A program made the position numbers and the translations under genes. Of a stretch of DNA of 64,000 nucleotides, positions 15,669 through 56,543 are shown piece after piece (position 1 is the first letter of the stretch; each line of letters starts with the position of its first letter). Source of the stretch: Bacteroidia bacterium (lineage in GTDB: Bacteria > Bacteroidota > Bacteroidia > 2-12-FULL-35-15); contig JAURXZ010000035.1 of the NCBI GenBank assembly GCA_030654175.1, positions 372,001 through 436,000 of the forward strand, given 5' to 3'. The notes beneath the pieces are model-generated. The model searched no databases. It was not told where the DNA came from and saw only the letters and a program-made list of their open reading frames with translations.

Positions 15669-16634
15669 TTATTTTGTATTGACCTCAATAAGCCTTATCG
15701 GAGCAATGGCTGGTATTAATCCAGCTTTTAAAATCATAATCTGTCCTTTTTCTCCAGCCACAAAGGATACAAATCCCATACCAAGACCTGCACGGGTTTG
15801 TCTGTTGATCATATAAACACTTCTTGTAAGAGGGTATTCTTTTGTTTTTATGTAGGCCTGATAAGGCTTTACAGCTATTGAAGCACTATCTTTAGCAATG
15901 GAAAGAACTTTTATTTTTTTTAAAAAACTCACCGTTAAGGTATCATCACTGTCACTGATCCAGTTAACGCTTAATACTCCAATTGCATTTTTATGCGTGC
16001 TCACGTACTCTATTACTTCGGGGTTTGATTTCACAGCAAATGCATTTTTTGAAAATGGTTTCCCAAGAAGTAATGTATCCTTTATATAGCTCGTGTTTGC
16101 TGAGCCATTGTTATCAAACACAACATTAATTTTTCCTAGTTGAGATTGGCTATTAATTTGTTTCCATAGGGAATCGTTCCCAAGCAATATGGATTTCATT
16201 TTATCAACTGTCATTGTAGTGTCATTATTCTCATTATTAACTACAAAAGCGATGGCATCTTCAGCTATTTTAGTAGATATTGGGAAAATATTTGCCTGTT
16301 CGAATGTCTTGCGCTCATTAACCGTTAAATCGCGGCACATGACCACCACTTTACACGAATCATTTATTAAGCGCTTAATAGCTTCGCCTTCAGGCAAATA
16401 CAACGCATGCACTTTGGCATTTTGATAAAACGATTCGAAGGTATATATTTGAGTATCAAATAATTGCTGAAAAGATTCATCAACAACGATATTTACTTCA
16501 CCGGAAGTTGGAGTATCAGTTGGCTCAGGCTTTCCTGATGAACAACCATAAAAAAATATTGCAATTGTAATTATAAAGAAATACCCTATAAAATTAGGCA
16601 TTCGGGCAGGTTTACTTAGCTTCTGTTTTAACAT
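15669..16634 (-). CDS. PstS-like phosphate ABC transporter substrate-binding lipoprotein
   Basis: Lipobox FFYGCSSG; VNIVVDESFQQLFDTQIYTFESFYQNAKV...; precedes a TPR gene, an arrangement I recall from Bacteroidota. Confidence 0.8.
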   Translation of the reverse strand: MLKQKLSKPARMPNFIGYFFIITIAIFFYGCSSGKPEPTDTPTSGEVNIVVDESFQQLFDTQIYTFESFYQNAKVHALYLPEGEAIKRLINDSCKVVVMCRDLTVNERKTFEQANIFPISTKIAEDAIAFVVNNENNDTTMTVDKMKSILLGNDSLWKQINSQSQLGKINVVFDNNGSANTSYIKDTLLLGKPFSKNAFAVKSNPEVIEYVSTHKNAIGVLSVNWISDSDDTLTVSFLKKIKVLSIAKDSASIAVKPYQAYIKTKEYPLTRSVYMINRQTRAGLGMGFVSFVAGEKGQIMILKAGLIPAIAPIRLIEVNTK

Positions 16635-16961: not shown

Positions 16962-19142
16962 TTACTCCAATTTCAGGATCCAAACGTTTGAATACTCTCT
17001 TTTGTATTTGGAGCGTTCGAGATCAGCATCCTTTTTATTATTTGTTTTCAAAGCAAAAATGTTATACATCTTTGTGGCCTTGTTTTGAATAATTTTTGTA
17101 TTCCGGTGTCCTTTAATAATACTTGCAGCTTTAAATCTTTCAGCATTTTCCTTACTTCCAAAACTACCTATAACAACGTAATACCCATTGCCTGCAGGCT
17201 CCCCCTTTTCATCAGCAAAACGATCCGTTTTATAAGAAGGCACTCCGGCATCCGATGCAACAGGAACCGGTTGGTCCGATACACTTTTTGTCGTTTTTTC
17301 AGGCTCAGGATTTATTTTTTTGATCCCTTCATCTGAATTGCCTCTCTCCACTAATTGAACCGGCAAAACCTCCTTTTCAACAGCAACAGATTTTTTTGAA
17401 TCTGTTGATTTAGGCATCTCTTCTCTGGTCTTTGTAATTGTTTCCACTAACATATCAATCTGGGCCTGATTATTATCCGATTGTGTTTTTAACTGCGTTA
17501 TCACATCACCATAGTCCTTACCAGGTTGGGTTTTATCATCGGCTTCAACTTGTTTTGAATCTGCAGATTTAGTTATCTCATCCCTGGTCTTAATTATTTC
17601 AACTAACTTGTCGATCTGGGCTTGATTATTATCCGATTGCGTTTTTAACTGCGCAATCACTTCGTCATAATCCTTAGTGGGTGGCAATTTATCAATGGCT
17701 TCAGCTTTTTTTGAATCTGAGGTTTTGGGCATCTCTTCCCTGGACTTTGTAATCGTTTCAACCAACATATCAATCTGTGCCTGATTATTTTCAGATTGTG
17801 TTTTTAATTGCGCGATCAATTCGCCATTCTCAGCAGCGGGTGGAGCTTTTACTTCTGCATTTTTCACCTTTGCAAGCTCCATTTTTAACCGCTCGATCTG
17901 GGCTTGAGTTGTATCCGATTTTACTCTTAATTGCCCAATCATCACCGTGTTATCTGTATGCGGAGAAGTTAATGTGCCAGAAATTTTTGCTCTTGCATTA
18001 TCCACTTTTAATTGATCGATCTGAGCCTGATTGCTTTCCGATTTGGTCTTCAACAGTGCCAGTTTAACATCAGCACTCTGGGAATTAACCAGCGCTAAAC
18101 TATCTTTTAACTTCCTTGAATCGTTCCCTGCCCTTTCAGCTTCTTTTGCTTTTGCAAGTTCAGCTTTTAACTGGTCGAGCTGAAGCTGATAAGTATCAGA
18201 TTTTGCTTTTAATTGGGCAATCATCTCATCATTTTCCTTATTCGATGAAGTTGCGCGTCCGGCTGTTTTCCCCGTTTGCAGCTCCGATTTTAAACGGTCA
18301 AACTGCACTTGGTTTGTATCGGATTTTGCTTTCAATTGCGTAAGCAAAGCATCTGTTTCTGAGATCAAAAAATGACGCAATAAACTATCTTTTAATTTCC
18401 TGCTATCTTCTGTTGCAGCTTCAGCCTCCTTAGATTTTGCAAGTTCCAGCTTTAACTGATAAATCTGCGCTTGGTTGGTATCGGATTGGGCTTTCAACTG
18501 GGCTATCACTAAAGAATTATCAACCGGCCGGTTCACTGTGCCTGCAATTTTTGCCCGTGCATTGTCCACTTTTAATTGATCGATCTGAGCTTGATTACTT
18601 TCAGTCCGGGCTTTTAACTGAGCAAGTTTAACTTCAGAACCGCTCATATTAGCCATCAATAAACTATCGTTCAACTTTCTTGCATTCGTTATGGAATCCC
18701 CGGCATTCTTTGCTTTTGCAAGTTCAGTCCTTAATTGATCTATTTGTACCTGATTTGTATCAGACCGTGCTTTCAATTGGCCTATCACTAAAGAATGATC
18801 AACCGGCCGGTTTACAGTGCCGGCAATTTTTGTTCTTGCATTGTCCACTTTTAACTGATCTATCTGGGATTGATTGTTTTCAGATTTGGCTTTTAATTGA
18901 TCTATCTGAGCCTGATTTGCATCTGATTGAGCTTTTAATTGCTTTCGTAAAGTATCAATCTCGGCAGTTAAAGCTATTTGCTTTAAACTATCATTTAATT
19001 TTCCGGAATCTGATAATGAGGTTTCTGTTTTATTTGCTTTTGAGGACTCTTTGTTGGCAACATTGGAATAACCAGAGGATTGAGCTACTGCAAATTGGGC
19101 AACTATAAACAGAGAAAGAAAGGTAAATAAAAGGCTTTTCAT
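16962..19142 (-). CDS. Exported coiled-coil repeat protein with C-terminal SPOR domain
   Basis: Signal peptide; 12 copies of a QLKxxSDxNQAQIDxL motif; C-term GNGYYVVIGSFGSKENAERFKAASIIKGHRNTKII...YSNVWILKLE (SPOR). Confidence 0.85.
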   Translation of the reverse strand: MKSLLFTFLSLFIVAQFAVAQSSGYSNVANKESSKANKTETSLSDSGKLNDSLKQIALTAEIDTLRKQLKAQSDANQAQIDQLKAKSENNQSQIDQLKVDNARTKIAGTVNRPVDHSLVIGQLKARSDTNQVQIDQLRTELAKAKNAGDSITNARKLNDSLLMANMSGSEVKLAQLKARTESNQAQIDQLKVDNARAKIAGTVNRPVDNSLVIAQLKAQSDTNQAQIYQLKLELAKSKEAEAATEDSRKLKDSLLRHFLISETDALLTQLKAKSDTNQVQFDRLKSELQTGKTAGRATSSNKENDEMIAQLKAKSDTYQLQLDQLKAELAKAKEAERAGNDSRKLKDSLALVNSQSADVKLALLKTKSESNQAQIDQLKVDNARAKISGTLTSPHTDNTVMIGQLRVKSDTTQAQIERLKMELAKVKNAEVKAPPAAENGELIAQLKTQSENNQAQIDMLVETITKSREEMPKTSDSKKAEAIDKLPPTKDYDEVIAQLKTQSDNNQAQIDKLVEIIKTRDEITKSADSKQVEADDKTQPGKDYGDVITQLKTQSDNNQAQIDMLVETITKTREEMPKSTDSKKSVAVEKEVLPVQLVERGNSDEGIKKINPEPEKTTKSVSDQPVPVASDAGVPSYKTDRFADEKGEPAGNGYYVVIGSFGSKENAERFKAASIIKGHRNTKIIQNKATKMYNIFALKTNNKKDADLERSKYKREYSNVWILKLE

Positions 19143-28759: not shown

Positions 28760-28924
28760 TTAGTTTAAAGTTTGAAGGTTCAAAGTTTGAAAGCTTAAAG
28801 TTCAAAGTTTGAAAGTTGAAAGTTTGAAAAAACTCCATGCTTCATATTACGTGTAATGTGACTAAATGAAACATAAAACATAATATGTCAACTATAAACT
28901 TGCAACTTTAAAACTTTAAACTTA
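28760..28924. repeat. Spacer-filling inverted-repeat element of ~7-bp AGTTTAA/GTTTGAA units (class A)
   Basis: Left TAGTTTAAAGTTTGAAGGTTCAAAGTTTGAAAGC...; right ...ACTTGCAACTTTAAAACTTTAAACTTA; touches the DUF3822 stop and lies 2 nt from the rsmD start. Confidence 0.85.
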
Positions 28925-52474: not shown

Positions 52475-55171
52475 TCACATAGGATCTACATCTATTTGCA
52501 CCCTTACCGATTTATAATCACTACTCGATTTAAATTGGACCAATAGGTTAGTAACAATTTTTTTTACCTGTACCACTGAAGCATCGCGCTCTATTTTTAA
52601 TAAAATATTTTTGTGATACAAATTACGAATGCGTGAAACAACAGGGAATTCAGGACCAAGAACACGCTTTGCAAAATGATGTTTTAATTCATCAGCTAAA
52701 AACTTTGCTGAAGCATTTACCATATTCACATCTCTATGAATTAGCGTAATTTCAATCAAACGATAAAATGGCGGGTAGTTGAAATTTTTTCTATCCAATA
52801 ATTGATTCGTATACATGGAAAGGAAATTGGTATGAATCACATCTTGTATTATACTATGATCCGGATTTTGAGTTTGAATAATTACTTTACCGCGTTTATT
52901 TTTTCTTCCTGCTCTACCCGACACCTGCGCCATTAATTGGAAGCTTCGTTCAAACGATCTGAAATCAGGGAAATTGAGCATACTGTCGGCATTTAAAATT
53001 CCAACCATACTCACATTATCAAAATCCAAACCTTTGGTAACCATTTGTGTCCCTACCAAAATATCAATGTTGCCATCTTCAAAATCCTGAATAATATGCT
53101 GATGCGCAAACTTGCTACGCGTGGTATCCAGATCCATCCTTGCAATTTTTGCTTTTGGATAAAAAATAGAAAGTTCTTCTTCTATTTTTTCAGTTCCAAA
53201 ACCTTTCATTCTTACATTGGTATCACCACAAGCTCCACATTTGTTTGGTGGTTTTATTGAATAACCGCAATAATGGCAACGTAACTGATTACTTGCTTTG
53301 TGATACGTTAAACTCACATCGCAATTACTGCACTGTGGTATCCATGCACATATATTGCACTCTAATTGCGGAGCAAAGCCTCTCCGGTTTTGAAACAAAA
53401 TTATTTGTTCCTTGTTTTGTAAAGCCAAAGTAACTGTATCCAACAATAATGGTGAAAAATGCGATTTCATTAATTTTTTTCTGGTCGCTTCTTTTACATC
53501 CGCAATTAAAATCTCGGGCATTTGCACACCACCAAAACGCTGAGGGATTTCAACAAAACCATATTTGCCTTCCTGTGCATTATAATAACTTTCTATACTT
53601 GGTGTTGCCGAGCCCAATAATGTTTTTGCTTTATGAATATGCGCTAAATAAATTGCGCCATCACGGGCATTGTAACGTGGTGCAGGATCATATTGTTTAT
53701 ATGAAGTATCGTGCTCCTCATCAACTATTACCAAACCTAAATTGCTAAAAGGAAGAAACAAAGAAGATCTTGCTCCTACAATTAGTTTAAAGTTAGAAAG
53801 TTTAGAGTTTAAAGTTGTATCGGGTTCTGACTTTGAACTTTCCGACTTTGAACTATGCAACTTTGAACTATCTACCCCTGCATTTAAAACATTATTCCAT
53901 ACCTCAACCCGCTCATTCCCATTAAATTTACTGTGATAAACGCCCACGGTGTCACCAAAATATTTTCGTAAACGATTGATGATCTGAGTGGTCAAGGCTA
54001 TTTCAGGAAGCAGATACAACACTTGTTTCCCTTGCGCAATAGCCTGTTCAATAAGCTTTACATATATTTCAGTTTTGCCGGATGATGTTACCCCATGAAG
54101 AAGCACTACATCTTTTATGCTTGTGGATGGTTGTTGATTGATCGTTGATTGTGGTTCGCCAGCAACAATTGAACTTTCAACTTTCAACTTTGAACTTTCA
54201 ACTTTCTTCCATCCAAACTGTTCCTGAATAGATTCATAAACCTGCTGCTGTACATCATTGAGCTGTGATATTTTATTCGCATTATCATAACTTGTAAAGC
54301 GACCAACTTCGCGCTCATAGACCTCTAAAATATTTTTTTGAACTAAAGACTTTAATGCCGCTTCGGCACCGGAAATCATTTTTATTATTTCAGACTTTTT
54401 TACTTCCTTATGCGAGGAGATAATTGGCAAGTTATTTGCAGTCGTTTGCGAATACCGCTCTGAAAGCTTAATGTAAGCAATCAATACATCTAATTGTTTG
54501 GGGGCTTTTTTTTCTAATAGCGGAAAAACAGTTTTTAAATTTTCTTCATCATTAGCATATTCCGTTATTCTAACAAAACTTTCGATCTTAGGTTTGAATT
54601 TTTCTTTTAACTCTTCATGGATCAATACCACACCTTTTTCTATCAGAATTTTCAAGATCGGATAAACAGTTTTTTGCTCCAGAATTTCAGAAACTTCATT
54701 AATGCTCAAAACAGTGCGAACTTCCAGTGCTTCAATGATCAAATGTTCCTTATCAGAAAATGTTTCGATCTGATCGCCTTCTATTACATCCTTCTGAGAA
54801 ATATATTCCGGATTAAGTACAATTTTCGTTTCGCTGGCTAACCGCAAGCCACCAGGCAAAGCCGCCACCATAACATCACCAATGTGGCACATATAATATT
54901 GGCTCATCCAATCCCATAACGCAAATTGTTTTAAATTAACAATAGGATGTTCATCTAAAATGGAATCGATATATTTAGCTTCGTATTGCTTAGGAGGGAT
55001 TTCATGGATATTGCGGACCAAAGCAGAATATAATTTGCCTCTCCCAAATTGCACCACCACTCTTTTTCCAACTTCAATAATGTCATTCCAATCATAAGGA
55101 ACCCGATAAGTATATAAATTGGGAACCGCTAAAGGCAAAACAACGTCAACAAAATAAGTGGTCCGGCTCAT
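52475..55171 (-). CDS. priA: Primosomal replication protein N' (PriA helicase), with two repeat-derived in-frame insertions
   Basis: LLHGVTSSGKTEIYVKL; VGARSSLFLPFSNLGLVIVDEEHDTSYKQ; Zn-binding CNICAWIPQCSNCDVSLTYHK...LRCHYCG; GTQMVTKGLDFDNVSMVG. Confidence 0.96.
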   Translation of the reverse strand: MSRTTYFVDVVLPLAVPNLYTYRVPYDWNDIIEVGKRVVVQFGRGKLYSALVRNIHEIPPKQYEAKYIDSILDEHPIVNLKQFALWDWMSQYYMCHIGDVMVAALPGGLRLASETKIVLNPEYISQKDVIEGDQIETFSDKEHLIIEALEVRTVLSINEVSEILEQKTVYPILKILIEKGVVLIHEELKEKFKPKIESFVRITEYANDEENLKTVFPLLEKKAPKQLDVLIAYIKLSERYSQTTANNLPIISSHKEVKKSEIIKMISGAEAALKSLVQKNILEVYEREVGRFTSYDNANKISQLNDVQQQVYESIQEQFGWKKVESSKLKVESSIVAGEPQSTINQQPSTSIKDVVLLHGVTSSGKTEIYVKLIEQAIAQGKQVLYLLPEIALTTQIINRLRKYFGDTVGVYHSKFNGNERVEVWNNVLNAGVDSSKLHSSKSESSKSEPDTTLNSKLSNFKLIVGARSSLFLPFSNLGLVIVDEEHDTSYKQYDPAPRYNARDGAIYLAHIHKAKTLLGSATPSIESYYNAQEGKYGFVEIPQRFGGVQMPEILIADVKEATRKKLMKSHFSPLLLDTVTLALQNKEQIILFQNRRGFAPQLECNICAWIPQCSNCDVSLTYHKASNQLRCHYCGYSIKPPNKCGACGDTNVRMKGFGTEKIEEELSIFYPKAKIARMDLDTTRSKFAHQHIIQDFEDGNIDILVGTQMVTKGLDFDNVSMVGILNADSMLNFPDFRSFERSFQLMAQVSGRAGRKNKRGKVIIQTQNPDHSIIQDVIHTNFLSMYTNQLLDRKNFNYPPFYRLIEITLIHRDVNMVNASAKFLADELKHHFAKRVLGPEFPVVSRIRNLYHKNILLKIERDASVVQVKKIVTNLLVQFKSSSDYKSVRVQIDVDPM
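53782..53875. repeat. Class A ~7-bp-unit element copy inside priA
   Basis: TTAGTTTAAAGTTAGAAAGTTTAGAGTTTAAAGTT...ACTTTGAACTTTCCGACTTTGAACTATGCAACTTTGAACTAT. Confidence 0.85.
54125..54206. repeat. Second short-unit repeat insertion inside priA
   Basis: GGATGGTTGTTGATTGATCGTTGATTG...TTGAACTTTCAACTTTCAACTTTGAACTTTCAACTTTC. Confidence 0.8.
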
Positions 55172-56413: not shown

Positions 56414-56543
56414 TTAGTTTAAAGTTAGAAGTTTAAAGTTAGAAAGTTTAAAATTTAAAGTTCGAATTTAGAAAGTTTAAAGTTGAGAGTGCGAGGGATG
56501 CTTTTTTAATTTCCCCACTTTAAACTTTCCAACTTTAAACTTA
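56414..56543. repeat. Spacer-filling inverted-repeat class A element between pyrE and SRPBCC genes
   Basis: TTTAGTTTAAAGTTAGAAGTTTAAAGTTAGAAAGTTTAAA... and ...CCACTTTAAACTTTCCAACTTTAAACTTA. Confidence 0.85.

Follow-up and report, generated by a model that had tools for sequence, protein, structure and literature searches.

The best-known case of palindromic DNA in frame within protein genes is that of Rickettsia. The Rickettsia palindromic elements (RPEs) are palindromes of ~100–150 bp, which form several families per genome and lie both between genes and in frame in the genes of unrelated conserved proteins (PMC2229807, PMC10969869). Another described system is the P6b region of the Nostoc trnL(UAA) intron, which is made up of degenerate 7-nt repeats with complementary arms, belongs to Class I (TDNGATT) or Class II (NNTGAGT), and has repeatedly undergone class replacement over its whole length (PMC4476775). 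Long heptanucleotide repeats have also been reported from other bacteria: the available excerpts of PMC4692102 and PMC4679880 describe G-rich repeats in Xanthomonas and Nostoc and a TAACTGA repeat in Beggiatoaceae, Cyanobacteria and some Bacteroidetes, which are dispersed and mainly intergenic. By analogy, RPEs and heptanucleotide repeats such as those of Nostoc P6b are the closest precedents for the element described here, which occupies a loop of the replication restart helicase PriA.

The elements in the genome that contains the window (the whole 64,000-nucleotide stretch of DNA that was analysed) are, like RPEs, palindromic and dispersed, with two-arm copies of ~65–160 bp, and such elements are found in frame in unrelated conserved genes (twice in priA, and in those for MurC, TilS, a D-Ala-D-Ala-ligase-like protein, a UbiD-family protein and others). 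Unlike RPEs, they have arms of 7-bp tandem repeats that encode no single conserved peptide, their families replace each other at one site between sister species, and their host belongs to the Bacteroidota. Because a conserved peptide is absent and the comparison is one of descriptions, not of sequences, the heptamer element is not classified as an RPE. Complementary arms and class replacement at one site are shared with Nostoc P6b, but in Nostoc the repeats form a stem in a group I intron RNA and fall into two classes, whereas here protein-coding and intergenic DNA carries at least six families and the array in priA lies in an open reading frame, not in a group I intron. The other bacterial heptanucleotide repeats are similar in being dispersed 7-bp tandem arrays of mainly intergenic location, but the same excerpts do not describe them as palindromic, as used in frame in core enzymes or as turning over at orthologous sites. 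REP/REPIN sequences, which are associated with RAYT transposases, are also short dispersed palindromes, but different, GC-rich repeats flank the RAYT genes in this genome.

Two heptamer-repeat loops in priA

The genome that contains the window is designated G000 and its closest sister species G017; labels beginning with L denote single loci. The two priA loops, S1 and S2, their parts and the related intergenic copies in the window are listed in Table 1. Along the gene, S2 proceeds from three AGTTCAAAGT units through a short centre to AACTTTAAACT units, all in frame. The preliminary description gave the sequence, minus strand and coordinates of S2 exactly as found here, and was also right about its in-frame position in priA and about the end (CTAACTTTAAACTAA) that it shares with the copy in the pyrE–SRPBCC spacer. 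It overlooked the S1 array in the same gene.

Table 1. Coordinates of the priA gene, its repeat loops and related intergenic copies in the window.
Feature	Position	Strand	Description
priA, replication restart helicase	52475..55171	-	898 aa, intact; carries two in-frame heptamer-repeat loops
S2, second loop of priA	53782..53875	-	Palindromic array of GTTCAAA/GTTTAAA heptamers; encodes VDSSKLHSSKSESSKSEPDTTLNSKLSNFKL
S2, 5' arm as the gene reads	53829..53875	-	Three AGTTCAAAGT units at 15-nt spacing; SSKLH SSKSE SSKSE
S2, 3' arm as the gene reads	53782..53816	-	AACTTTAAACT units, reverse complement of the family; end is CTAACTTTAAACTAA
S1, first loop of priA	54169..54203	-	Tandem GTTGAAA/GTTCAAA heptamers; encodes KVESSKLKVESS
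S1, rear part	54126..54151	-	CAATCAACGATCAATCAACAACCATC, C-rich repeat of a type other than the S1 heptamers
Intergenic palindromic copy of the S2 family between pyrE and the SRPBCC gene	56416..56541		Strong hairpin
Further intergenic palindromic copy of the S2 family	28762..28922		

The repetition in S2 was compared with synonymous sequences, in which the peptide was kept fixed and codons were redrawn with priA's own usage. S2 contains five heptamers against a mean of 0.17, a count reached by none of 1000 redraws, and its self-similarity at 7, 14 and 15 nt was likewise matched by 0 of 1000. The inverted-repeat score is 17/20 against a mean of 12.2 and was not reached in 300 redraws. This score bears out the inverted arms claimed for S2 earlier, but their likeness to the intergenic copies is incomplete: the hairpin of the window's priA copy is degenerate (z = -1.1 relative to shuffles), whereas the hairpins of intergenic copies are strong (z = -5 to -7.7).

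The AlphaFold model of the window's PriA agrees with solved PriA structures. Both loops are predicted to be disordered, with pLDDT values below 50 at residues 325–349 (S1) and 435–458 (S2) and a confidently modelled helix and strand flanking them. In the PDB comparison, the stretch between query residues 430 and 457 has practically no counterpart in a Klebsiella-type PriA (4nl4), in agreement with the earlier statement that typical PriA proteins lack the insert. Most other Bacteroidota PriA proteins have no loop at S1 and a short loop at S2; extended loops at both positions are found in nearly all members of the genus.

Two further observations were made in and near priA. In S1 of G007 (L033), a 24-nt palindrome-like insert, CCCGCCTGATCACATTCGGGCAGG, is nested in frame within the heptamer array. 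Upstream of priA (L078; G007:C30:41648-41737) lies a second partial match to the PriA N-terminus, which is perhaps a partial duplication.

Turnover of families at orthologous loops

The S2 arrays of different species are built of GTTCAAA, GTTTCAA/G, AACCAAC, ACTACGA/ACTACAA, AAATTTC or AAAATCC, and that of G029, which belongs to another taxonomic family, is built of GAGGGGC. At least six heptamer families are found in this loop across the relatives. In a PriA tree computed without the loops, the sister pairs G000/G017, G015/G024 and G013/G011 are each joined at 100% bootstrap and differ in their S2 family. With family states assigned by eye, the genus displays at least 16 changes of state at S2, or 9 when between-family changes alone are counted.

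The A family at S2 is common to G022, G007, L063 and L067, and the sister species G017 carries a different family. The S2 of G017 looks mixed, with a new 5' arm and a half-old 3' arm, and this piecewise replacement favours in-situ turnover over insertion of a whole element at that event. Not every array is dynamic, since the order of S1 units is identical in G000, G017 and G022; S1 is inherited and more stable in these genomes. The array encoding KVESSKLKVESS is partly common to several relatives in the genus.

The repeat families beyond priA

The three-unit pattern of the S2 family has 76 matches in the genome, against 15 for a reversed-pattern control. A de novo repeat scan of about 450 kb of the 5.1-Mb genome, all from the contig that holds priA, found 49 clusters of inverted repeats against 11 in a shuffle, and a lag scan of the same 450 kb found periods of 7, 14, 15 and 22 nt enriched among non-codon lags, with none in a Markov shuffle. 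Heptamer families of the genome include GTTTAAA, GTTGAAT, GAGATAT, GTTAGAT and GTTTCAG. As regards the terminal inverted repeats expected of a MITE, many copies of the A family begin with TTAGTTTAAAG and finish with CTTTAAACTAA, but some copies are one-armed. The G-richer arm is the 5' arm in all 13 of the clearest heptamer palindromes of the contig, which were selected by hand, and in 14 of the 16 with a G/C difference in an automatic set; these counts are not independent, because many of the palindromes belong to one family. Coding DNA is depleted of arrays, as it holds 5 of the ~26 against a coding share of 87%. In non-coding copies of at least 60 bp, 3 out of 54 frames are open, which makes the in-frame survivors a selected minority.

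Palindromes of other types are also present. A CCTGACAGGGTTTGAAACCCTGTCAGG palindrome at C6:355733 (L139, about 15733-15848) has a partly conserved counterpart at this position in both G017 and G021. Palindromes at C6:43935-44108, 106666-106742 and 264273-264363 contain TTTCTCGACTCCGCTCGAAATGAC-like sequence, a relative of which is found in the pyrE spacer of G002, and those at C6:222661-222753 and 359172-359298 are of the GCCACAGATTACACG type. Period-18 repeats are common in the coding DNA of the contig, and a coding region at about 18064-19031 of the window has repeated TTTTAACTG-like segments.

In about half of the species, the pyrE–SRPBCC spacer is short and free of repeats. A GTTTAAA palindrome occupies it in G000, G007 and G022, and a GTTTCAA/G palindrome does so in G014 and G029. 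Heptamer arrays of other kinds are found there in G005, G012, G016 and G019, and G017, the closest species, has an unrelated element. The spacer at C6:340394 carries a GAGATAT palindrome in G000, G015 and G021 and a GTTGGAT palindrome in G022, and is empty in G024. Empty intergenic sites may be deletions. Strong hairpins are formed by fresh-looking intergenic copies. A role as terminators was considered and rejected: 16 intergenic arrays lie between tandem, 4 between convergent and 1 between divergent genes, much as gaps in general do.

The preliminary description had pointed to other proteins as a place to look for the encoded peptides, and in-frame arrays are indeed present in the genes of further conserved proteins: MurC, TilS, the D-Ala-D-Ala-ligase-like and UbiD-family proteins, a RecB-like helicase and a BtuF-like protein, all assigned by NCBIfam, and a SpoIIE-type phosphatase, named from its sequence alone. 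The array peptide of the D-Ala-D-Ala-ligase-like protein, RVESSKLKVESSN, is nearly identical to that of PriA S1, and a MurC of known structure is without about six of the array residues. Encoded peptides differ by family and species, and VESSKLKVESS is repeated only in the A family (PriA S1 and L003). At L016, L018 and L029 of the window's own genome, heptamer arrays seem to code for the hydrophobic segment of what are probably signal peptides, e.g. FSFQLLTFNSFAQ.

Probable copying between sites and alternative explanations

Matches to six heptamer families were counted genome-wide in 25 genomes. The family that occupies priA S2 ranks high in abundance elsewhere in the genome carrying it (mean percentile 0.84 over ten genome/family pairs). 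When families are permuted among carriers and priA's own matches are subtracted, p = 2e-4, in a test that ignores kinship among genomes, takes site families assigned by eye and includes some approximate self-hit subtractions. GAGGGGC, for example, is matched 20 times in G029, 11 times in G025 and once in G032, but not at all in the 22 remaining genomes. An earlier analysis of four families, with a Mann-Whitney test for each, gave no more than suggestive results (p about 0.06 in three cases and 0.33 in the fourth). As the family in priA tracks genome-wide abundance, copying in trans is favoured over independent local slippage.

The preliminary description had proposed to define insertion borders and a target-site duplication; inspection of family copies and both spacers found no consistent direct repeat at the borders, and no clean border emerged. 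Ends shared by all heptamer families were not found, nor was a transposase for the heptamer elements in a search directed at the RAYT family. A RAYT/REP origin was rejected after inspection of five PF01797 (Y1_Tnp) loci, the flanks of which carry the other, GC-rich repeats. Loci L142-L146 of the same genome are RAYT-like Y1 transposase genes flanked by repeats of their own, e.g. AGCCCTGAAAGGGC and CCCTTCGGGG. Viral carriage was also considered: an exact 23-mer of the family matches just 17 stretches among 2.9 million viral contigs, with no sign of a main vector.

Our preferred reading, to which we give a probability of roughly 0.6, is that priA S2 is a copy of a dispersed, non-autonomous palindromic heptamer element, which is copied in trans, has families that turn over, and is tolerated in frame in disordered loops. 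The element would have two arms of degenerate 7-bp tandem repeats, the first richer in G and the second its reverse complement, and would reside mostly between genes. Elements would be copied in trans within the genome, and the units of a placed copy would then be gained and lost in a slippage-like manner or exchanged for other units. Copies that are in frame and free of stops would persist in disordered loops of conserved proteins, for which we infer neutrality, and PriA would provide two permissive loops occupied by successive heptamer families. In a more far-reaching and rather doubtful version, heptamer palindromes of Bacteroidota would be self-propagating, copied in trans and kept double-armed by hairpin-templated copying, and the currently dominant family of a genome would continually supply and rewrite disordered loops of core enzymes in each lineage.

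Movement between loci would be dispensable if the loop were disordered and permissive and contained a heptanucleotide microsatellite that changed its length and sequence locally, through polymerase slippage and through template switching at hairpins. Work cited in PMC4679880 reports that heptanucleotides are the most frequent long simple repeats of many bacteria and proposes polymerase slippage, and both the piecewise-looking replacement in G017 and the small per-unit differences between families A and B fit such a process. It is nevertheless unlikely, because one family is present at dozens of unlinked sites per genome, where independent seeds should yield unrelated heptamers, because a number of intergenic sites have no array in relatives, and because the family in priA follows genome-wide abundance. 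A one-off insertion of a class A copy into a compact priA of this lineage was the interpretation of the preliminary description. The priA sequence does match the intergenic family, end motif included, but extended loops are found across the genus, many of them with heptamer arrays of other families, and the distribution of the A family skips the sister G017. Together these findings largely refute this interpretation and leave it very improbable. The broader claim, that the element enters coding DNA and persists there as a loop, retains the dispersed family, the open frame, the predicted disorder and the arrays in other genes, but loses the single insertion into a compact gene. The counter-case named there, an ancestral loop, applies by half: the loop predates the sequence that it now has, but the relatives usually carry another repeat of the same type in it and not unrelated DNA.

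Selection on the Ser/Lys-rich loops as functional segments of PriA, e.g. for partner binding, with the DNA repeats being incidental, would explain why both loops are retained throughout the genus and why [NFY]KL residues recur beside the conserved IVGARS strand. However, the sequence, composition and length of the peptide vary between sister species, the loops are predicted to be disordered, and the repetition of the DNA is far above what the peptide requires, all of which makes this explanation very improbable. That the hairpin acts within priA as DNA or as mRNA is highly improbable: strong folding is seen in intergenic copies and in the priA copy of G029, but the window's own priA copy does so barely better than shuffles (z = -1.07) and the priA loop of G024 is without a long hairpin. 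The relatives are mostly metagenome-assembled genomes, but open frames run through both PriA loops in many independently assembled ones, and the chance of an assembly or binning artefact is negligible.

Repetitive DNA seems to have been repeatedly copied into protein genes in this uncultured Bacteroidota genus, whose core genes contain palindromic DNA in frame. What can be traced along the phylogeny is that sister species have different repeat families in the same loop and that these tend to follow the repeats of the respective genome. Direct comparison can therefore test how heptanucleotide repeats originate and how non-coding repeats turn into protein sequence.
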